Source of the DNA: a virus
Reading direction: 5' to 3' (one strand)
DNA: 38,837 nt
IMG/VR virus record: IMGVR_UViG_3300048015_000157
Location: 1-38,837 of that record
In this document: positions 10,160 to 32,130 of the stretch, piece by piece
Layout of the letters: every line of letters begins with the position of its first letter
Numbering within the stretch: position 1 is the first letter of the stretch
Notes under the pieces: generated by a model
What the model was told of the DNA's origin: nothing
What the model saw: only the letters and a program-made list of their open reading frames with translations
Database searches by the model: none
Position numbers and translations under genes: made by a program

Positions 10160-11689
10160 TTGCCCGCCAAGAATGCGCCGATCGCTCCGTGGCAAGGGCG
10201 GTTTCTCAAGGAACGATCACGCGAAGCGATCGTCATCGGCGGCATCGCGTCGGGCAAGTCGTTCATCGCTGCCGACTGGCTGATCACCGAGTGCATCTGT
10301 CGCTTCCCGCAATCGCAGAGCGGCATCGTGCTCGGCACGCACAAGCAGGCCAAGGAAGGCGCGCTCAAGACCTTCACGCAGCGCTGCACGTTCTGGTTCG
10401 GCCCCGAGGGCGTTGGCTGGAAGCAGAACAAGACCGACTTGTCAGTCACGTTCCTGCGCGGGCCGGCGCGCGGTCATCGCGTGTCGATCTGGTCAGCCGA
10501 AGCGTACGAGACCATGAAGTCGGTCGAACTCGACTTCATCTGGTGCGACGAACTGCAGACCTGGCAGCACGGTAGTGCCGCGCTCGACTTCGTGCGCGGC
10601 CGCAACCGGTACTCGCCGATCGCGCTCGCGACGTACGGCGATTACGACGACGACGGCGTCCTCGTGAGCATGCCGTTCGAAGTCAAGCTGCGCATGTCTG
10701 CCAACCCGCCGTGGACGACGGCGCATTGGCTGTATCAGCAGTTCGTCGAGCGGAACGACGTCGATCTCGACGGCAACGACGTGCCGCTCTACCACGTGCG
10801 CACGGCGGACAACACGCTGCTGCCCGATCGCGAAGGGTACATCGCGAACCTTCGCTCCCGCATGGCGCCGGACGTGTTCCGGATCGAGGTGCTCGGCGAG
10901 TGGGGCGACATCGGTCGCGGCCGCATCTACACGTCCTTCTACCGCGGCCGCGCGACGTCGCCGTCGCCGCTGCTGCCCTTCGTCGAACGTGTCGCCGGCA
11001 CCGATCGCATCAAGCGCGACCCGCCGAAGCCGCTCTACTGGACGCAGGACTTCGGTGTCAATCCGCGCGTCTCGCTCGTCATCCAGATCCACCAGCAGCG
11101 CATCCCGATCGTCGGCTACCAGCGCGTGCTCCTGTACGTGCTCGACGAGATCGAGATCCCGAGCGGCTCGACGGACCTGATGATCAAGGAGTTCGTGCGG
11201 CGCTACCCCGCGTCGTTCGACTGCGTCGACGCGAATGGGCAAAAGCAGCGCATCGATCGTCAGCGCGTCTACGTGTACGGCGACCATCGCGGCGGCGATA
11301 CGCGCAACTCCACGACGGCCGAGACCGACTGGGGCATGATGCGCAACGCCAAAGAGCTGCGGCCGTACGACATCAGCTACCACTACCGCGCGTCGAACCC
11401 GCCGATCGTCGACCGGTACGCGGTGACGAACGCGAAGCTGTGCAACGCGGACGACGAGATCGGCATCCTGATCCACCCGCGCTGCAAGAAGCTACTCGCC
11501 GATCTGCAGCAGACCGCGTACAAAGCGGGCACGCGCATCGCCGACAAAGGGACGCCGTCGCGCGGCATCTTCCGCACCCACTTGTCCGACGCGCTCGGCT
11601 ACCTGATCGAGCACGAGAGCGAGAAGCTCGGCGTCAACTTCCTGCGCCGCGGTGCGCGCACCATCAACGTCGGCATCGGCCGGCGATAG
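10160..11689 (+). CDS. terL: Terminase large subunit
   Basis: Encodes 509 residues from a TTG start after GGAGG. The N-terminal ATPase has Walker A G-G-I-A-S-G-K-S at 27-34 and Walker B L-D-F-I-W-C-D-E ending with catalytic E131. The C-terminal half has RNase H-like nuclease acidic positions: Q-D-F-G-V-N-P, V-Y-G-D-H-R-G-G-D and H-L-S-D-A-L-G-Y. Length and domain order match phage TerL. It cuts concatemers and pumps DNA through the portal encoded next. Confidence 0.93.
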   Translation: MPAKNAPIAPWQGRFLKERSREAIVIGGIASGKSFIAADWLITECICRFPQSQSGIVLGTHKQAKEGALKTFTQRCTFWFGPEGVGWKQNKTDLSVTFLRGPARGHRVSIWSAEAYETMKSVELDFIWCDELQTWQHGSAALDFVRGRNRYSPIALATYGDYDDDGVLVSMPFEVKLRMSANPPWTTAHWLYQQFVERNDVDLDGNDVPLYHVRTADNTLLPDREGYIANLRSRMAPDVFRIEVLGEWGDIGRGRIYTSFYRGRATSPSPLLPFVERVAGTDRIKRDPPKPLYWTQDFGVNPRVSLVIQIHQQRIPIVGYQRVLLYVLDEIEIPSGSTDLMIKEFVRRYPASFDCVDANGQKQRIDRQRVYVYGDHRGGDTRNSTTAETDWGMMRNAKELRPYDISYHYRASNPPIVDRYAVTNAKLCNADDEIGILIHPRCKKLLADLQQTAYKAGTRIADKGTPSRGIFRTHLSDALGYLIEHESEKLGVNFLRRGARTINVGIGRR

Positions 11690-11698
11690 GAGACGGCT

Positions 11699-13366
11699 GT
11701 GGACCTGCAACAGCTGCTCGAGGAGCTCGCGAAGAAGCAGAGCGTGCGCCTCGACGCGCGCAAGAAGCGGCTGCAGGGTCTCGATCTGATCCTCAACCGC
11801 AAGTACTACCATCTCCTCGGGCTGCCCGAGTTCGACAAGCGGTACACCGCCGGCGAGACGACGACCCGCAACAAGTACCTCCCGATCGACAAGCGCCGGT
11901 CGGCCGCGTCGTACGACCTGCCGGGCATCATCGTGCGCGACCTCAACGCGCAACTGTGCGGCAAAGGGAAGTTCCCAGTCGTCACGCTCGACGACGACGA
12001 CGCGACGCGGGCGTTCGCGGAGTACATCCGGCTCGCGGATCTCGAATCGGTGATGGATCACGCGGCGGATGCCGCGGCGATCGGCGGCGTGGTCATCGTT
12101 CCCGAGGCGTTCACGCCGGACGACGACGCCTCCAACCCCACGCTGGCCTTCAGCTACTGGAAGGCGTACGAAGTCGATCTCGTGTTCGAGCGCAACGCGC
12201 CGAACACGCTCTCGTCGGCGACGCGCACGTGGGAAGTCTCGCGTTCGGCACTTCACTCGGACGGTTACGATGTCGACGCGCTCGAGCGCGTCTGGGCCGC
12301 GAAGGTGCTCTCGCTGCGCGCGTCGCGCCGGCGCCTGCCTTCCGACAAGAAGCCGGCGCAGCACCCGAAGTGGGTGATGCGCCGCGTGCTCGACAAGCAG
12401 GCGTCGACGTGGTACCTACCGGTGCCGGTGAAGGTCTACGAGTCGCGCGACTGGGACGACCTCACGAAGAACGGCGTCGAGCCGTGGGAGGTCGACGCGG
12501 ATCGCACGATCGCGCACGACCTCGGCTTCTGCCCGGCGGTGTGGCACATCCCCGCCAAGGGCGACGCCGCGTACGCCCCCGACGGGCGCTGCGTCTTCGA
12601 AGGCGCGGTCGACAACAAGCTCGCGATCGACAAGATCATGTCGATCGGCGTGCAGGCCGTCGTCATGGCGGGCACGCCGCAACTCGCGATCGCGAACGGC
12701 GGCGGCGGCTCCGGCGCAGACGAGATCGAAGGGCCGAACCCCTCCGACGAAGGCTTCGATCCCGAAGACGTGATCGAGGTCGAGGAGAAGGGCGGCGCCT
12801 GGCTCGTGCAGCTCGACGGCGGCGCGCTCACGCCGCTCGACATCGTGCTGCGCCGGCTGCGCGACATGGGCCTCGAGAACGAAGGCGGCTCGCGCATCAC
12901 CGAAGAGTCGCTCGCGGGCGCCAAGAGCGGCTACGCGATGGAGCTCCTCAATCAGGCGCTCACGTACGTCGCCGGCAAGATGCGGCCGTACTTCGCGAAG
13001 ACGCTCGTGCGGCTCGTGCGCCTGCTCGCGCGCATGCGTGAGGCGTTCAACGGCCTCGAGTGCGAAGAAGGGCCGCTGCCCGACTTCAACCTCAAAGCGA
13101 AGGTGAAGCAGATCTCGTTCGGCCCGTACTACGAGCTGACGGGTCAGGACAAGCAGGCCGAGACGGCCGCGGTGATCGCGCTCGTCCAAGGCGGCTTGAT
13201 GACCGCGGAGACGGCGATCACCTACATCGCGCAGTTCTTCGACGTCACCGACGTCGAGGCCGAGATCTCCAACGTAAAATCGCAGACCGCCGCGGCCTCG
13301 GATCTCGATCACCAGCGCGCGGTTGAGCTCAAGCAGACCGCGCCGCCGAAGGAGAATGCCGCGTGA
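11699..13366 (+). CDS. Portal protein
   Basis: Encodes 555 residues from GTG, ten bases after the terminase stop. Position, length and composition match phage portals: a helical N-terminus, a central mixed alpha/beta domain and a long helix region near 420-460 (A-L-T-Y-V-A-G-K-M-R-P-Y-F-A-K-T-L-V-R-L-V-R-L-L split by a kink). Loop-rich insertions G-G-G-G-S-G-A are present around residue 338. It forms the dodecameric DNA gate at one capsid vertex. Identification rests mainly on synteny and size. The stop overlaps the next GTG. Confidence 0.82.
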   Translation: MDLQQLLEELAKKQSVRLDARKKRLQGLDLILNRKYYHLLGLPEFDKRYTAGETTTRNKYLPIDKRRSAASYDLPGIIVRDLNAQLCGKGKFPVVTLDDDDATRAFAEYIRLADLESVMDHAADAAAIGGVVIVPEAFTPDDDASNPTLAFSYWKAYEVDLVFERNAPNTLSSATRTWEVSRSALHSDGYDVDALERVWAAKVLSLRASRRRLPSDKKPAQHPKWVMRRVLDKQASTWYLPVPVKVYESRDWDDLTKNGVEPWEVDADRTIAHDLGFCPAVWHIPAKGDAAYAPDGRCVFEGAVDNKLAIDKIMSIGVQAVVMAGTPQLAIANGGGGSGADEIEGPNPSDEGFDPEDVIEVEEKGGAWLVQLDGGALTPLDIVLRRLRDMGLENEGGSRITEESLAGAKSGYAMELLNQALTYVAGKMRPYFAKTLVRLVRLLARMREAFNGLECEEGPLPDFNLKAKVKQISFGPYYELTGQDKQAETAAVIALVQGGLMTAETAITYIAQFFDVTDVEAEISNVKSQTAAASDLDHQRAVELKQTAPPKENAA

Positions 13367-14629: not shown

Positions 14630-16048
14630 GTGCCCGGTGTCGTTTCCCAATTCCCGACTCCGATCGCGAACATGCTGCAGCAGAACGCCTTGAACAAAGG
14701 GTTCGAGGAGTACATCGAGCCGATCACCGGCTACGGTGCTGCTGCGGACGTTCGCCCGGTGCCCAACCACGTCGGCGACACGCTGACGCTCACGCGCCCC
14801 GGCCTGCTCGCGGCCAACCCGGATCCGGTCGATCCGTCGCAGGCCACCGGCCTCGACAACGGCATGACGCCCGACCAGTTCGGCGACGAGCAATACACCA
14901 TCACGCTCGAGCTGTTCAATGGCGCGTCGGACATCGACATCAAGACCAACCCGATGGCGATCGTCGACCGCTTCGCGCAGACCGTCAAAGCGAAGATGGT
15001 GCAGGCGGCCAACGTCGTCGACAAGTACCAGCGCAACTGCCTCTTCGGCGGCCTCGTGCCGTCGGGGCGCAACGCGACCGCCGTCAAGTTCGGGTATCTC
15101 TCGGGCACCACGATTGTGCTCACCGCGTACACGGCGGCGACGACGATCACGGTCGAAGACGTGTCGGGCTTCCAGAACACCGTCGTCAACGGCGTGCTCA
15201 CGCCTGTTTCGGCGGCGAACCCGATCCCGCTCTTCCGCAACGGCACGCAGATCGCGAACGTGATCGGCTACACGCAGGCGACGCTCGCGGCAAATCAGTC
15301 GCAGCGCGTGTTCGTGGGTTTGGGCAACGGCGGCCGCGGGATCTCCGGTACGCTTCTGCTCGATACGGCCGTGTCCGGTGCCGTCGGCGACGTCGTGCAG
15401 GCCGCGTTCGCGCCGCTGATCGTTCGCCCGAACGGTAAGCTGCACTGGTCGCAGCTCACCGCCTCGGACCATCTGGTCGACGCGAACATCCTCGACGCCG
15501 TCGCGTACCTGCGCGACAACGCGATCGAGCCGGTGTACGAGGACAAGTACCTCTGCATCTGCGATCGCACGTCGGTCCGCCAGCTCTTCTCGGACGCCGA
15601 CTTCAAGCAGGTCTTACAGACCCGCATCGACTCGCCCGAGTTCCGGATGGGCCACCTTGCCGAGGGCCTCGGCGTCGTGTTCAAGTTCACGACCAACGCG
15701 CCGATCCAGCCGATCAGCTCGCAGAACGCCGTCGCGATCCGCCGGCCGATCATCGTCGGCCGCGGCGCGCTCGTCGACGGTCCGTCGCAAGCGAACGAGA
15801 CGTTCGCGTCGATCAACCGCAACGGCGGCATCGACGAAGAGAAAGGCATCCACTACACCGAGGAGCACAACGGCATCGTTTTTGCGCTCCGCCCGCCGAT
15901 CGACCGCAACGGCCGCGTCATGTCGGTGTCGTTCGAATCGATCCGCGGCTGCACCGTGCCGACCGACCTGACCGCCGGTCAGAACATCATCGGCACCGGT
16001 TCGAACGCGCTCATCAAGCGCGGCGTCGTGATCGAGGTCGCGGCCTAG
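14630..16048 (+). CDS. Major capsid protein
   Basis: Encodes 472 residues from a GTG preceded by AGAAGGAGATCATC, the strongest ribosome site in the head block, as expected for the most abundant product. Placed directly after the scaffold. The N-terminal arm and F-N-G-A-S-D-I-D-I-K-T-N-P region, a beta-rich insertion at ~155-250 and the closing beta-rich segment fit a P22/HK97-fold coat protein with an inserted domain. Family placement is from synteny and composition. Confidence 0.8.
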   Translation: MPGVVSQFPTPIANMLQQNALNKGFEEYIEPITGYGAAADVRPVPNHVGDTLTLTRPGLLAANPDPVDPSQATGLDNGMTPDQFGDEQYTITLELFNGASDIDIKTNPMAIVDRFAQTVKAKMVQAANVVDKYQRNCLFGGLVPSGRNATAVKFGYLSGTTIVLTAYTAATTITVEDVSGFQNTVVNGVLTPVSAANPIPLFRNGTQIANVIGYTQATLAANQSQRVFVGLGNGGRGISGTLLLDTAVSGAVGDVVQAAFAPLIVRPNGKLHWSQLTASDHLVDANILDAVAYLRDNAIEPVYEDKYLCICDRTSVRQLFSDADFKQVLQTRIDSPEFRMGHLAEGLGVVFKFTTNAPIQPISSQNAVAIRRPIIVGRGALVDGPSQANETFASINRNGGIDEEKGIHYTEEHNGIVFALRPPIDRNGRVMSVSFESIRGCTVPTDLTAGQNIIGTGSNALIKRGVVIEVAA

Positions 16049-18240: not shown

Positions 18241-18447
18241 GTGACCCCGGAAGAGTTCAACGCGCGCGTTCGCGCGATCGACGCCGAGTGCGATCTCGCC
18301 GTGCGCCGCATCGCGAGCCGGTACGCCATCTTCGAGCGCCACCCGCAGATGGTGATGATCGTGTATCCCGGCGCGATCAAGGCGATCTACGACAAGCGCG
18401 ATCGCGCGATTGACGCTCTTGAGGCCGAGTTTTACGGAGTAAGCTGA
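18241..18447 (+). CDS. Small helical hypothetical protein
   Basis: Encodes 68 residues from GTG, one base after the preceding stop. All-helical and charged, with E-E-F-N-A-R-V-R-A-I-D-A-E-C and Y-D-K-R-D-R-A-I-D-A-L-E-A-E-F. No family recognised. The TGATG junction couples it to the next gene. Confidence 0.5.
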   Translation: MTPEEFNARVRAIDAECDLAVRRIASRYAIFERHPQMVMIVYPGAIKAIYDKRDRAIDALEAEFYGVS

Positions 18448-19232
18448 TGCCGGCGACGTCTGTCCAACGGATCGACTCGAAGATCCAGTACGGCCGCGGC
18501 CGCGAGGCCGGCAAGCTGGGTCAGACCTACACCGTGCAGCGCATGACGCCGACGACGAACGTCAGCGTCACCTCGACGCCGCCCGTCATCCAGAACTTTC
18601 CGGCCCGCATCCAGCGCGCGCGGAAGATGGCGATCGAGAACCAATCGTTCGACCTGCTCGTCGTCGAAGCGACGTGCGATAACCGCAAGCTGCAGCTCAT
18701 GGACGTGCTGAACGAGACGGGCTACAAGTCCGACGGCGGCGTGTACACGGTCGCCCAGTTCCGGCCCACGCGCGAGACGCTCTGGGTGCGCACCGAGTCC
18801 AACATCGCGATCACGCGGCCGCTTCCAGGCGCGGGCCAGGCCGTGCAGATGCCAACGACGCCGGGCGTGACGATCGCGCCGGACGGCACGTGGGGCGGCG
18901 TCACGAAGGCCGGCGAGCAGGTCCTCACGCTGGTCGACGGCGTCTACTCGTTTTCGAACGCGAACGCGGCGCCGGCGGGCGTGCAGGCCGGCCTCCAGCC
19001 GCTCAACCGCGTGCGCGAGGTCCCGAGCTCGACGGCGATGGGCAAGACGCCGATGCCGCAGTACCGCGAGGAGTACCTCGTCTGGCTCCCGATGCTCGAC
19101 GGCGTCTACCTCGACGAGCACGATCGGCTGAACTTCCTGACGCGCGACCGCTACGAGATTGCGCAGGTCTTCACCACCGACCTCACCGGCCTCTCCGGCT
19201 ACATCGTCACCGTGAAGAAGCTCGGCGTGTGA
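18447..19232 (+). CDS. Head-tail junction-region structural protein
   Basis: Encodes 261 residues; ATG overlaps the upstream stop. N-terminus K-I-Q-Y-G-R-G-R-E-A-G-K-L-G then mainly beta structure, with R-P-T-R-E-T-L-W-V-R-T near the middle and a well-conserved-looking end (Y-R-E-E-Y-L-V-W-L-P-M-L-D-G). No family recognised. Position among connector genes supports a virion role. Confidence 0.55.
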   Translation: MPATSVQRIDSKIQYGRGREAGKLGQTYTVQRMTPTTNVSVTSTPPVIQNFPARIQRARKMAIENQSFDLLVVEATCDNRKLQLMDVLNETGYKSDGGVYTVAQFRPTRETLWVRTESNIAITRPLPGAGQAVQMPTTPGVTIAPDGTWGGVTKAGEQVLTLVDGVYSFSNANAAPAGVQAGLQPLNRVREVPSSTAMGKTPMPQYREEYLVWLPMLDGVYLDEHDRLNFLTRDRYEIAQVFTTDLTGLSGYIVTVKKLGV

Positions 19233-19486
19233 TGCTCGACTGCGAAGACGACGGACCGCTCCGCCGGCCGCGCACCTCGACGCATCACCGGAACTGGCGC
19301 TCCTACCGCGACTTCATGACCTGCGGACGCTACACGCACTCGCCATCGCATCGCGTCGCGCGGCCGCAGCGCGGCTTCGACGCGATGCTCTTCCTCACGC
19401 ACAGCTGCGATCGCCGCAACGCGATCGCGATGGCGACCATTTCGCGCGTTGCGCTCGTCAACGCGCGCTACCTGAAAGAAGGCTGA
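19232..19486 (+). CDS. Basic small hypothetical protein
   Basis: Encodes 84 residues; ATG overlaps the previous TGA. Rich in R, H and aromatic residues with four cysteines (C4, C31, C59 and others may bind metal). No recognised domain. It directly precedes the receiver-domain gene by one base, so the two are probably co-translated. Confidence 0.45.
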   Translation: MLDCEDDGPLRRPRTSTHHRNWRSYRDFMTCGRYTHSPSHRVARPQRGFDAMLFLTHSCDRRNAIAMATISRVALVNARYLKEG

Positions 19487-19487
19487 C

Positions 19488-19874
19488 GTGCGCGTCGTGA
19501 TCGGTGATGACTCCCGCATCGCCCGCATGTTCCTGAAATCGGCGCTGCGCGGATCCCAATACCAGATCGTGGCCGAAGCGTCCACGGGCGTCGAGATCGT
19601 GACCCAGTGCCGGCGCTTCCGGCCCGACCTCGCGTTGGTCGACAACTCGATGCCGGGTGCGCTGACCGGCTCGCAAGCCGCGCACCAGGTCCGCGAGCTC
19701 GACCTCGCGCGCTACGCGATCGTGCTCTCGTCGCTCGACATGGACGCGATCACCGGCGGCCACAAGTCGAACGAGTGGCGCGCCAAGAAGATCGCGTTCA
19801 TCGGGAAGACCAACGATTCGACGCAGCTGCAGGGCATGATCGCGCAGCGAATCGCGGAGCTCGACAGTGTCTAA
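19488..19874 (+). CDS. Stand-alone CheY-like receiver (REC) domain protein
   Basis: Encodes 128 residues, the exact size of a single receiver domain, from GTG. All key positions are present: acidic pair D7-D8 in V-V-I-G-D-D-S-R, phospho-acceptor D52 in L-A-L-V-D-N-S-M-P-G, hydroxyl S81/S82 in I-V-L-S-S-L-D, and lysine K107 in F-I-G-K-T. No output domain follows. In bacteria such proteins receive phosphate from a histidine kinase and change binding partners. Here the gene is embedded between head-tail genes and overlaps the next gene by 8 bp. The proline that normally follows the lysine is replaced by threonine. Role in a phage unknown. Confidence 0.85.
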   Translation: MRVVIGDDSRIARMFLKSALRGSQYQIVAEASTGVEIVTQCRRFRPDLALVDNSMPGALTGSQAAHQVRELDLARYAIVLSSLDMDAITGGHKSNEWRAKKIAFIGKTNDSTQLQGMIAQRIAELDSV

Positions 19875-20799
19875 GCCGGCGCTGCTCGACGCGCTCGAAA
19901 CGATCAAGAACGCCGTCGGCGTCGCCGTCGCAGTCGCGGCCATCCCGAACAAGGTGCAGGTCTTCGCCGGTCAGCCGATCGGCCCGGAGCTCACCAAGAT
20001 CCTCGCGCAGAACGACGCCGAGGCGGTCGTCACGGTGATGCCGATGCCAGGCGCGCAGAACACGGCGCGCTACGAGCGCAAGTTCTTCCAGACGTCCGCG
20101 CCCAACACTGCGCTGAGCGCGCAGATCTCGCCGCTGAACGTCATCACGTTCGCCGGCACGGTCGCGCAGAATCTGGCCGAAGACGTCGCGATCGGCGGCG
20201 AAGACGCGACCGGCGGTGAAGACGTCGCGATCGGCGGCTTCTACAACGTCCACACGTTGCTCGCCGGCTACCCGGCGTACGACGCGTACGTCCAGGCCAC
20301 GCCGTCGATGTCGATGGCCGGCCTCGCGACCGCGGTGGCCGCGGCGATCACGGCGCTCGGCCTCTCTGGTGTGACGGCGAGCGCGAGCGGTCAACAGGTC
20401 ACGGTCATCGGCGCGAACGTGAAGTACTGCAACGTCGGAAGTGCCGGAACGATCGCGCGCGAGATCTCGCGGGTGATGCGGCGCATCCAGGTGTCGGTCT
20501 ACTCGTCCGATCCGTTCACGCGCTTCGCGGTCGGCGACGCGATCTACCAGAGCATCGGTGACGCGATCTCGCTCTTCCTGACGCTCAACAACGGCTCGCA
20601 GCTCTACTGCCGGTACGCGAGCGACGCGCTCGACGAGACGTCGCAGAACGAGTACACGCTCTACGTTCACCACTTCATCTTCGACTGCGAGTACGGCATC
20701 ATCCAGACCGCGACGGCGACGCAGATCGGCGCCGTGACGCTCGGCGATACGATCGCGAACTTTCAACCGCAGACGGCTATCTTCGGAGGAACGACCTGA
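19867..20799 (+). CDS. Tail/head-tail structural protein with GGED repeats and inserted Ig-like domain
   Basis: Encodes 310 residues from a GTG overlapping the receiver gene by 8 bp. Residues ~95-125 contain A-E-D-V-A-I-G-G-E-D then T-G-G-E-D-V-A-I-G-G. A beta-alpha-beta domain follows (Y-D-A-Y-V-Q-A-T ... L-A-T-A-V-A-A-A-I-T ... G-Q-Q-V-T-V-I-G-A-N). The rest resembles tail-terminator-type proteins of contractile phages (V-F-A-G-Q-P-I-G near the start, F-T-R-F-A-V-G-D-A-I-Y later). Likely a tail-completion component; family not certain. Confidence 0.6.
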   Translation: MSKPALLDALETIKNAVGVAVAVAAIPNKVQVFAGQPIGPELTKILAQNDAEAVVTVMPMPGAQNTARYERKFFQTSAPNTALSAQISPLNVITFAGTVAQNLAEDVAIGGEDATGGEDVAIGGFYNVHTLLAGYPAYDAYVQATPSMSMAGLATAVAAAITALGLSGVTASASGQQVTVIGANVKYCNVGSAGTIAREISRVMRRIQVSVYSSDPFTRFAVGDAIYQSIGDAISLFLTLNNGSQLYCRYASDALDETSQNEYTLYVHHFIFDCEYGIIQTATATQIGAVTLGDTIANFQPQTAIFGGTT

Positions 20800-21068
20800 T
20801 GGACACCACCGTCGCCATCGTGCATCAACCGATCATCGTGGACGGCGTCCACTACCAGCCCGGCGACAAGCTCTTCGGCGACCTCGCGGAGCGCGAGCTC
20901 GCGAACGAAGTGCATCGCAACTTCCTCACGCGCGCGCCGCTCGGCGTCCATGAGATCCCCGACGAGGTCCGCGCGGCCGATCCGGCGCCGGCGCCGGCGC
21001 CGGTCGAGCGGCCGACGCCGAGCGCGTTCGCGCCGTCGAGCACGACCTCGAGCACCAGCGGCGACTAG
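20799..21068 (+). CDS. Small structural-region hypothetical protein
   Basis: Encodes 89 residues; ATG overlaps the previous stop. The first ~55 residues form a compact beta/helix unit (I-V-D-G-V-H-Y-Q-P-G-D-K-L-F-G-D-L-A-E). The tail is P/A/S/T-rich and disordered. Comparable short proteins with a G-x-x-Y-x-x-G-D motif occur just before sheath genes in some phages. Function unknown. Confidence 0.5.
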   Translation: MDTTVAIVHQPIIVDGVHYQPGDKLFGDLAERELANEVHRNFLTRAPLGVHEIPDEVRAADPAPAPAPVERPTPSAFAPSSTTSSTSGD

Positions 21069-21081
21069 AAAACCCGACGAT

Positions 21082-21102
21082 GCTTAGGGCTGGCTCCTAA
21101 GC
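21082..21102 (+). other. RNA hairpin upstream of sheath terminator
   Basis: Perfect 7-bp inverted repeat GCTTAGG / CCTAAGC with a 7-base loop. No T-run follows, so it is not itself a terminator. It lies 13 bases before a terminator hairpin and could stabilise the 3' end of the head transcript. Confidence 0.45.
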
Positions 21103-21114
21103 GACCACACACGC

Positions 21115-21144
21115 AAGAGCGCTCTCACGGGCGCTCTTTTGTTT
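21115..21144 (+). terminator. Intrinsic terminator before the sheath gene
   Basis: AAGAGCGC pairs with GCGCTCTT across an 8-base loop, followed by TTTGTTT. It closes the head/connector block. The next gene starts only 22 bases later. Confidence 0.7.
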
Positions 21145-21165
21145 CTTGAGGAGCTGGCCTTTTCG

Positions 21166-23163
21166 ATGATCATCACAAACGCCAACCCTGGGAATTTTCT
21201 CACGGACGGCCCGTACATCAACCTCGTGCAGGCGCCGCCGGGAACACCGGCCGGGCCGCAGACGGGCCTCATCTGCATCAACGGCACCGCCAACTTCGGG
21301 CCGGTAAACTCGCCGCAGCCCTTCGTCGACGTTGCCTCCGCCTTCACGGCATTCGGCAACGGCACAACGCTGCCGAACTCACTCGTCGATGAAGCGATCT
21401 CGGCGATGCCGGAGTGCCAGAGCTTCCTCGGCAACCGCGTCACCGATGGCACGGACACCGCCGCGACGATCGTCATCGGCGACACGACCGGCTTCGCGAC
21501 GGCGACGTACACCGGCGGCGGCACGCCGGCGGCCGGCAACACCATCCAGGCGGTCCTCGCGAACGGCTCGTTCACGGTCTCGACGACCGTCTACACGCTG
21601 ATCACAGGTGACACCGTCGCGACGGCGCTCACGCAGCTCGCGACGCTGATCAACAACTCCGCCGCGGTCGTCGGCCCGAACGCATTCCTTCAGCCCGTCA
21701 CGGCAGGCGCGACGACCATCCCCGTCACCGCGCTCAACAGCGGCACCGGCGGCAACTCGATCACGATCCAGGCCGTCGTCACCGGCGGCGGCATGACGCT
21801 CACGCCGACGACGGCGACCGCGATGACCGGCGGCGCCGCGTCGGGTACGGTCGGCACGCTCACCGCGAAGTCGACCGGGACGTACCCGAACTACAGCACC
21901 TCGACGCAGACCGGCGGCTCGCTGCTGCTCACGCTGCAGTCCGGTACGATGGCCGTCTCGCCGGTGCTTCGCGCGGTGCTGACCTTCCCGAACGCGGCGT
22001 CCGAAGTGTTCTCGAACATCGTCGCGTACGCGTCGGTCGGCGGCGCCTACAACGCCGCCACCGCCAAGGCCAACCTGCTCGCGGCGATCAACGGCAACGG
22101 GACCACGCTGCCCGGTTCGCAACGCTGGACCTTCTCGAGCGGCGCGTCGACCACGGCGCCGTTCGTCGGCTACGTCAACGGCGCGTCGGGCGGGACGAAC
22201 GGCACGACGAACATCACGACCGCGACGCTCATGGGCGTCGACGGCAACACGGGGCGCACCGGGATCTACGCCTTCCGCGGCCTCGCCTCGGGTGCGCAGC
22301 TCGTCGTCGCGGCGCTCACCGACCTCACGGTCGCCCAGACGCTCGTCGCGTTCGCCGCGGCGGAGAACTGCATCGCGCACATCGCGACGCCGTCCGGCAC
22401 GTCGACCACGACGACGATCGCCAACAAGTCGACGTACAACGCATCATCGCCGCAGCTGATCTTCGACGCGGACTGGGACTACCGCTACGACACCGTCTCG
22501 GGCGCGCAGCGACTCGTCTCGCCGATCGGCAAGATAGCCGGCGCGATCGCGATGCAGCCCGCGTGGATGACCCCGGGCGGGAAGCCGGTCAACGGCGGCG
22601 TGCTCAACATCATCGCGACGGAGCGCGCGACGGCGCAAGCGGGACTGCCGCAGACCCAAACGCTCAACACGTCGCCGCTCTCGGTCGGCGAAGCGGGCTT
22701 GCGCGAGTCGAACGGCATCGCCTACCTCACCAACAGCCCGCAGCTGTTCTTCCAGGGTGGGTACGGCCTGCCGCACGGCATGATGTCCGACGGCGTGACG
22801 CTGATCTCGGACGTGCGTATGCTCAAGAGCATCGCGTACTCGCTCCAGCAGATCTACGGCCGCTTCGTCGGCTCGATGCTCGCGATCGTCAAGGGCAACC
22901 TGGTCGTGATCGCGCCGACGGGCGTCGAGTCGAGCCCGCAGGACGCGGTCGATCAGTACTTCCAGAGCCTGCTTTTCCCGCAGCCGCAGATCGCCGCGTA
23001 CTCGAACATCATGGATGCTTCGAACAACACGCAGACGACCGTCGGTCAGGGTCAGCTCATCGGGAACGTGCGCGTCACCACGCTCTCGGCCGCACGGTTC
23101 ATCATCACGTCGGTCCAGGTCGGCGTGAACGTCCAGATTCAAGCGCAGAAGCTGTCGTCGTAA
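21166..23163 (+). CDS. Tail sheath protein
   Basis: Encodes 665 residues. The ATG at 21166 (GAGGAG 13-18 bases upstream) is preferred over TTG 21139, which lies in the terminator tail. The C-terminal ~230 residues show the sheath core: G-K-P-V-N-G-G-V-L-N-I, E-S-N-G-I-A-Y-L, V-R-M-L-K-S-I-A-Y-S-L-Q and a closing strand. An N-terminal beta insertion (~95-240) carries Ig-like modules. Position directly before the tube, chaperone and tape measure genes confirms the call. It forms the contractile outer tube. Confidence 0.85.
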   Translation: MIITNANPGNFLTDGPYINLVQAPPGTPAGPQTGLICINGTANFGPVNSPQPFVDVASAFTAFGNGTTLPNSLVDEAISAMPECQSFLGNRVTDGTDTAATIVIGDTTGFATATYTGGGTPAAGNTIQAVLANGSFTVSTTVYTLITGDTVATALTQLATLINNSAAVVGPNAFLQPVTAGATTIPVTALNSGTGGNSITIQAVVTGGGMTLTPTTATAMTGGAASGTVGTLTAKSTGTYPNYSTSTQTGGSLLLTLQSGTMAVSPVLRAVLTFPNAASEVFSNIVAYASVGGAYNAATAKANLLAAINGNGTTLPGSQRWTFSSGASTTAPFVGYVNGASGGTNGTTNITTATLMGVDGNTGRTGIYAFRGLASGAQLVVAALTDLTVAQTLVAFAAAENCIAHIATPSGTSTTTTIANKSTYNASSPQLIFDADWDYRYDTVSGAQRLVSPIGKIAGAIAMQPAWMTPGGKPVNGGVLNIIATERATAQAGLPQTQTLNTSPLSVGEAGLRESNGIAYLTNSPQLFFQGGYGLPHGMMSDGVTLISDVRMLKSIAYSLQQIYGRFVGSMLAIVKGNLVVIAPTGVESSPQDAVDQYFQSLLFPQPQIAAYSNIMDASNNTQTTVGQGQLIGNVRVTTLSAARFIITSVQVGVNVQIQAQKLSS

Positions 23164-30499: not shown

Positions 30500-30952
30500 A
30501 TGGCCGCTGGCAGCGTCGAGATCGCGATCTCGAACGGCGGCTGGAACGGCGACTTCGCGCTCACCGCGAACGGAGATTTGCAGCTCGCGATCGACACGCC
30601 GGCGACGCCCGCGGCGACCGTGCAGCGGCTCGTGCGCGCGATCCAGACGACGCCACGGCTGACCGACGCCGCCGGGAACCCGATCGCGCGGCCCGACGAC
30701 TGCTTCAACTGCACGTACGGCTCGGGCGTGCGCGCGCTCGTGAACCAGCCGATCACCCCGGCGCTCATCGCCGGCCTGCAGGCGCGCATCATCGCCGCGC
30801 TGCTCGCGGATCCGTCAATCGCCCCGAATCCGCCGCCGGTCGTCAACGTCGGGCAGACCGGCACGTTCACGGTCTCGATCTCGGTGACGTGCTTCGCCGT
30901 CAGCGGCGAGATCGTCACGATCCCATCCCTCACCCTGCCGTACGGGAGCTAA
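30500..30952 (+). CDS. Baseplate wedge protein (gpW/gp25-like)
   Basis: Encodes 150 residues. It has G-D-F-A-L-T-A-N-G-D-L-Q-L near the start and A-A-T-V-Q-R-L-V-R-A-I-Q-T-T. The arrangement of an initial strand pair, helix and final strands is that of gp25/gpW-like wedge proteins, though the family E-P-R motif is not seen. It is directly before gpJ, as in P2 and Mu. Confidence 0.65.
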   Translation: MAAGSVEIAISNGGWNGDFALTANGDLQLAIDTPATPAATVQRLVRAIQTTPRLTDAAGNPIARPDDCFNCTYGSGVRALVNQPITPALIAGLQARIIAALLADPSIAPNPPPVVNVGQTGTFTVSISVTCFAVSGEIVTIPSLTLPYGS

Positions 30953-30954
30953 GC

Positions 30955-32130
30955 ATGCCGCTCCAGACGCTGACGCTTGCACAGCTCCAGCAGATGTTCG
31001 CGACGAACTACAGCAGCGTCGCAGCGCTGCCGGCGAACACCAACCCCGGCTCCGCGCTCGGCGCCATCGCGAACGCGAACGCGCTGCTCGCGCTCAACAT
31101 CCAAGGCGAGCTCGTCTACGTCAGCGGCATCTCGCGGCTTGCGACGTCGAACGGCGCCGACGTCGACTCGTTCGTCAACCCGTTCGGTGTGACGCGCATC
31201 GCCGCGTCGCCCTCAAGCGGTACGGTGACGATGTCGACGGCGTCGCCCGTGTCGACGCAGGTCATCATCCCGATCGGCACGCAGGTCGCGACGTCGACCG
31301 GCCTGATCTTCACGCTCATCGCCGACCCGACGAACTCGACCGGCTACTACAACGCGACGCTGCTCGCGTACGTCATCGCGGCCGGTACGACGACCGCGAA
31401 CGTGCTCGTGCAGTGTACCGTCGCGGGCTCGATCGGTAACGTCCAGGCGGGCACCATCACGCAGCCGTACGGGACGTCGGCGACGTCGCCGCTCGCCGGC
31501 ATCTCGACGATCTCGAACGGCTCGGCCTTCACGAACGGTCAAGACCAGGAGACCGACGCCGCGCTGCGCACGCGCTTCGCGCTGCTTCTGTCGACCGGAT
31601 CGGGCGGGACCGTGAACGCGCTCGCGGCCGCATTGCTCGCGGTGCAACCGAACCTGACGTACACAATCGGCGACGCGATCTCACAAGCCGGCGCATCGAC
31701 GCCGGGCTACATCTCCGTGTTCGTCAACGTGCTCGGCTCGAGCTCGGCGCCGTCGGCGGCGCTGATTAGCGCAGTCCAAGCCGCGGTTTCCGCGCCGGGC
31801 GTCAAGCCGGCGGGATCCACGGTAAACACCTACGCACCGTCGATCGCGACCGTCGGCGTGACCGCGAACGTAAAGGTCGCGGGCGGCTACCAAGCGTCGA
31901 GCGTGGTCGCGGCCGCGAGCGCGGCGCTCGCGACGTACTTGAACTCGATCGGCCTCTCGCCGACCGGCGCGACGCAGCTCGCGCAGCTCGCGGAGTGCTA
32001 CGTCGTCCTGCGCACGACGCCCGGCGTTGCGAACGTCACTTCGCTCCTGCTCAACGGCAACCAGTCAGACGTCTCGGCCGCCTACGGCGCGCAGCTCGTC
32101 GCCGGCACGATCACCCTCACCCCATACTAG
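30955..32130 (+). CDS. Baseplate wedge protein J (gp47/gp6-like)
   Basis: Encodes 391 residues; the start is two bases after the W stop region. Contains the family core G-T-Q-V-A-T-S-T-G-L-I-F-T, A-G-S-I-G-N-V-Q-A-G-T-I and the diagnostic G-Q-D-Q-E-T-D-A-A-L-R-T-R-F region near 205. C-terminal repeats of V-x-A-N-V-K-V-type strands follow. It forms the hexagonal baseplate iris. Assignment is strong from motif and order. Confidence 0.85.
   Translation: MPLQTLTLAQLQQMFATNYSSVAALPANTNPGSALGAIANANALLALNIQGELVYVSGISRLATSNGADVDSFVNPFGVTRIAASPSSGTVTMSTASPVSTQVIIPIGTQVATSTGLIFTLIADPTNSTGYYNATLLAYVIAAGTTTANVLVQCTVAGSIGNVQAGTITQPYGTSATSPLAGISTISNGSAFTNGQDQETDAALRTRFALLLSTGSGGTVNALAAALLAVQPNLTYTIGDAISQAGASTPGYISVFVNVLGSSSAPSAALISAVQAAVSAPGVKPAGSTVNTYAPSIATVGVTANVKVAGGYQASSVVAAASAALATYLNSIGLSPTGATQLAQLAECYVVLRTTPGVANVTSLLLNGNQSDVSAAYGAQLVAGTITLTPY

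Follow-up and report, generated by a model that had tools for sequence, protein, structure and literature searches.

Receiver domains are a basic unit of bacterial signalling, and a gene for what appears to be one, lying by itself inside the head-tail operon of a virus, raises the question of what such a protein is and what it does there. The gene (REC) starts with GTG at position 19488 of a 38,837-bp virus record, the whole of which is referred to here as the window. A preliminary description of this DNA had proposed a complete CheY-like receiver with an acidic pair at D7 and D8, a phospho-acceptor at D52, S81/S82 and K107, lacking an output domain, and had named a fold outside the receiver family as evidence that would speak against it. 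All of these residues were found at those positions, S81 being the canonical Ser/Thr position. The protein fell within the receiver family by its match to Pfam Response_reg (PF00072; 44.3 bits, E 2.3e-11, residues 3-85, against a curated cut-off of 30.2 bits) and by comparison with PDB sequences, where CheY and other receivers were the top matches (E about 1e-8). The Pfam alignment covers the first 81 of 111 profile positions, the last third of the window protein being divergent and carrying an insertion, and the homologues align to almost the whole profile. The CheY matches and the near full-length coverage of the homologues predict a (beta-alpha)5 fold. No output domain was found in REC, and the nine homologues are each 118-134 aa long. 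The GC3 of the open reading frame (0.91) is similar to that of adjacent genes and marks it as coding. By sequence comparison, the product was confirmed as a genuine stand-alone receiver with a canonical predicted phospho-acceptor site.

Table 1 Features of the window around the receiver gene and the evidence for each
Feature	Position	Strand	Evidence
Terminase large subunit	10160..11689	+	phrog_2, E 2e-23
Portal protein	11699..13366	+	phrog_64, E 4e-12
Major head protein	14630..16048	+	phrog_1357, E 3.6e-13
Probable head-closure (stopper-like) protein, 261 aa, all-beta	18447..19232	+	Alignment A10, weak fold matches
84-aa ORF between head-closure gene and REC	19232..19486	+	Read from sequence
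Stand-alone receiver (REC, CheY-like), 128 aa, phage-specific C41	19488..19874	+	Pfam, PDB matches, nine-lineage alignment, column comparison with host receivers
Tail terminator, 310 aa, gp15/gpU-type fold, inserted domain ~84-191	19867..20799	+	AlphaFold2 model, Foldseek, phrog_13532
89-aa ORF 3' of terminator	20799..21068	+	Sequence
Tail sheath (contractile tail)	21139..23163	+	phrog_23, E 9e-21
Baseplate wedge	30889..32130	+	phrog_6, E 2e-48

PHROGs searches identified terminase, portal, scaffold, major head protein, sheath and baseplate wedge genes around REC, which make this a contractile-tailed phage (Table 1). The preliminary description had also placed the receiver between connector genes and coupled to both neighbours, and both points held. 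The AlphaFold2 model of the protein encoded immediately downstream (pLDDT 71) had among its top Foldseek matches the phage 812 neck, the T4 neck and gp15, and P1 and E217 neck/terminator chains, and phrog_13532 was matched by seven of eight homologues. This tail terminator has the same fold as T4 gp15 and lambda gpU; to our knowledge, neither T4 nor lambda has a counterpart of the terminator-coupled REC gene. On the upstream side, the product of w18447 was graded only a probable, tentative head-closure protein because its fold matches were weak: the top matches of its model (pLDDT 62) were mostly neck proteins, with a Pam3 neck chain at probability 0.98 and E 0.05. Its homologue lies directly upstream of the REC region in eight of nine lineages. 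The small ORF that precedes REC stops 1 nt 5' of the REC start, and the GTG start of the terminator gene overlaps the REC stop by 8 nt. Iterative profile searches with this small ORF and with the one that follows the terminator gene found no homologues beyond the window, and a search of 18400-21200 gave no sigma70-like promoter.

Relatives of the window were identified first by a scan with the sheath, and more came from alignments built on the sheath, w28314 and w18447. The REC, terminator or portal protein alone, used to scan viral contigs, returned none. The structural proteins of these relatives are ~35-48% identical to those of the window. When whole records were searched with PF00072, a single receiver was found in each of eight virus records, all above the cut-off, with scores of 50-70 bits in the seven records other than the window. 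In each, REC lies directly before a terminator homologue and, where one is present, after a w18447 homologue; two more short contigs and one contig of the Eremiobacterota metagenome-assembled genome (MAG) G056 have the same arrangement. A search for receivers in the same place in related phages had been suggested in the preliminary description, and REC was found directly 5' of the terminator gene in 11 of 11 public contigs that were found to span the site, which represent nine distinct lineages, as two pairs have identical REC genes. The terminator start codon overlaps or sits at the REC stop in at least six of them (window, L003, L005, L009, L021 and L035). In L009 a different large protein is encoded upstream of REC, yet REC still abuts the terminator gene. 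One further contig (L099) was left out as it begins too far downstream for the REC site, and distant Eremiobacterota tail clusters (G116, G136, G108 and G120) have only one to three tail genes in the fetched stretches and therefore carry no information on REC loss.

The phage receivers have a mean pairwise identity of 36% (range 26-65%). All nine lineages nevertheless keep D7, D8, D52 and K107, with either Ser or Thr at position 81, so that the degeneration of D52 in related phages, raised beforehand as a possible counter-indication, was not seen. Only 13 of the 128 window positions are invariant, and the four site residues would all fall among them by chance with a probability of ~7e-5 (arithmetic). 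In the column comparison, C41 was present in every one of the nine phage receivers and absent from all 21 host receivers. Conservation is among the lowest in the alpha4 and alpha5 segments, which usually form the output face. In a tree that also included Eremiobacterota CheY proteins and further G056 receivers, those of the phages formed one clade (UFBoot 80) beside, not within, the host CheY clade. Distances between phage receivers track those of w18447 (r 0.69, p 0.002) and w28314 (r 0.64, p 0.004); no significant correlation was found with the terminator (r 0.15, p 0.20) or with w30500. Between L002 and L003, the receiver genes have a dN of 0.25 and a dS of 1.42, giving a dN/dS of about 0.18 that is approximate given the high dS, and the structural neighbours gave about 0.12 and 0.16. 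REC is under purifying selection similar to that on its structural neighbours. Its synteny, single clade, shared C41, invariant site and purifying selection indicate that the ancestor of the phage clade captured the gene once, from a source resembling CheY, and that it has since been passed on as a core late gene.

The hosts of these uncultured soil phages are probably Eremiobacterota. Of 149 Eremiobacterota genomes, six have w28314 homologues, which in two cases lie on long contigs (0.85 and 1.9 Mb). A palsa MAG of the phylum carries decayed pieces of w28314: a frameshifted copy, the main piece, at 458-1574 of L020 (PLLA01000007.1), a contig with integrase- and transposase-like ORFs (labels read from translations), and more fragments on other contigs of that genome. 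The two Eremiobacterota genomes with close phage genes are G056, which has REC itself on contigs that are short and may be subject to binning error, and G008, which has decayed copies. The finding ties these phages to Eremiobacterota, a phylum with few known viruses. The nearest Eremiobacterota relatives of REC are CheY proteins; the one operon examined also has cheC and cheA, and CheW domains follow shortly after it. No histidine kinase (HATPase_c) was found in the eight phage records, one of which is 129 kb long, and any phosphoryl donor is therefore probably the host's.

The preliminary description had suggested that REC might sense or hijack host phosphorelays, serve as a kinase sink or be a domesticated assembly factor. 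Domesticated enzymes in phage structural operons, for example ClpP-type prohead proteases and HNH nucleases beside the terminase, act in assembly, and by likeness to these REC may do so as well. A role in morphogenesis is favoured by its fixed coupling to the terminator gene, its conservation in all lineages and the lack of conservation of the small flanking ORFs, and domestication as a core late gene therefore tips the balance somewhat towards virion assembly. Our favoured reading, held tentatively and ranked ahead of a host-kinase decoy, is that REC is a phosphorylation-switched factor that acts with the terminator or neck in head-tail joining. REC would be co-produced with the terminator and head-closure proteins and bind one of them, and would act, depending on its phosphorylation, as a switch or chaperone while the tail is completed or joined to the head. 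Its phosphoryl group would come from host kinases or from small-molecule donors, e.g. acetyl phosphate, and its phospho-state would make this assembly step depend on the condition of the host cell. A bolder version seems rather unlikely: here host kinases or acetyl phosphate would set the phospho-state of the domesticated receiver, and that state would permit tail termination or head-tail joining, with assembly gated by host signalling. If REC does act in assembly, it would introduce a phospho-regulated step in virion morphogenesis. Against assembly, receiver distances do not correlate significantly with those of the terminator, a variable alpha4/alpha5 face is unexpected for a single fixed structural partner, and the product of a late gene may also target the host. 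We know of no solved phage neck that contains a receiver.

The variable output face, together with the lack of a kinase in the phage records, makes a decoy of host kinases a serious rival. In that case REC, expressed late or delivered with the virion, would act as a decoy or mimic at host histidine kinases or phosphorelays, where it would take phosphate or compete and so alter stress, envelope or lysis timing, its place in the operon setting timing and dose. Invariant phosphorylation residues combined with a variable output face are what a phosphate acceptor with no one fixed output partner would show, and a donor that is probably the host's suits such an acceptor. Genes for host takeover tend to be accessory and to differ in position, whereas REC is fixed beside the terminator gene in nine of nine lineages, and divergent hosts would be expected to favour divergent residues at the contact with histidine kinases. 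We regard the decoy as possible but doubtful; if REC does act on the host, it would give the whole phage lineage a tool against phosphorelays. One phage protein, PIT4 of Pseudomonas phage LSL4, is known to engage host two-component systems: it is an early protein and binds histidine kinases (PMC10714779), but that source does not call it a receiver domain.

That the receiver fold was domesticated purely as a neck or collar component, with phosphorylation irrelevant, would agree with its place next to the terminator gene. It is improbable, since D7, D8, D52 and K107 would then be expected to drift, and they are invariant in nine lineages at 36% mean identity.

That REC imitates CheY so as to jam the flagellar motor or chemotaxis in infected cells is very improbable, even though the closest Eremiobacterota homologues are CheY proteins, the operon examined has cheC and cheA with CheW domains close by, and the phage clade adjoins CheY in the tree. 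REC shares with CheY and other single-domain response regulators the PF00072 domain, the phosphorylation residues and the lack of an output domain, but it differs from CheY in its head-tail operon, its separate clade, the invariant C41 and the variable alpha4-beta5-alpha5 face, and an output face that is not conserved argues against a motor target. Nor is it accompanied by CheA/CheW: no HATPase_c domain was found in the eight phage records and no CheW domain in G056 and G008. The phage receivers did not group within CheY. As CheW is absent from G056 and G008, MAGs that may be incomplete, and as at 1e-18 the sole CheY-class match in either is the phage receiver of G056, a chemotaxis target is disfavoured in these genomes, subject to their completeness. 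Least likely of all is a moron, a recently acquired host gene for lysogenic fitness and unrelated to phage growth: although morons do occur between structural genes in temperate phages and remnants of the phage group lie in host genomes, this reading is largely refuted because REC is conserved in all nine lineages rather than sporadic, at the same place, in one clade that codiverges with two structural genes, lacks a promoter of its own and matches its neighbours in GC3.

The preliminary description knew of no established role for a receiver at this position, and we likewise found no precedent in the annotated phage records or the open literature searched. Similar systems include the cREC domains, a divergent kind of receiver from jumbo phages and conflict systems, which are linked to NAD+/ADP-ribose enzymes and cyclic nucleotides (PMC7824862). 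They too are receiver-derived, phage-carried and equipped with catalytic aspartates, but the phage-neck receiver is canonical and lies in a neck gene block; no NAD+/ADP-ribose or cyclic-nucleotide enzyme was matched among the window neighbours scanned, and those that could be recognised belong to the head, neck and tail. Phage-carried Spo0A homologues, likewise response-regulator genes, keep the DNA-binding effector without the receiver (PMC10294663), the opposite of the receiver without effector found here. Within the sensitivity of tblastn, annotated GenBank phage records contained no comparable gene. Among the matches, H4 and H7 were NarL-type two-domain regulators on apparent host genome fragments, H1 lay at a contig end without annotation, and the Acinetobacter matches were annotated as PhoB; none was comparable. 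Phrase searches for phage-encoded response regulators or CheY gave no match in the open literature, which excludes subscription journals and preprints, and broader searches of that literature returned no receiver in a phage structural operon. The domain is ordinary and its setting is unusual: a canonical receiver conserved among the core genes of a phage neck module appears to be undescribed in the literature searched, with prior description elsewhere possible.

Several other features were observed in the window and in related contigs. In the window, a 10-bp inverted repeat with a T-rich tail lies at 21115-21138, just 5' of the sheath gene; it is a possible transcription terminator that ends the block, and the number of such repeats is at chance level. 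Two large Eremiobacterota contigs, L041 (G116:C5) and L043 (G136:C4), have tape-measure and w28314 homologues, and sheath, terminator, head and REC genes were not detected in the fetched stretch; these clusters are possibly remnants or tailocin-like. The large protein upstream of REC in L009 (1-2087), which replaces the head-closure homologue, resembles a beta-helix tailspike by eye. In L002 a small Cys-rich zinc-ribbon-like ORF (1107-1247, about 46 aa) lies between the head-closure gene and REC, and ~5-6 kb of extra genes separate terminator and sheath in L002 (2530-7982) and L003 (3903-10000), compared with 0.3 kb in the window.
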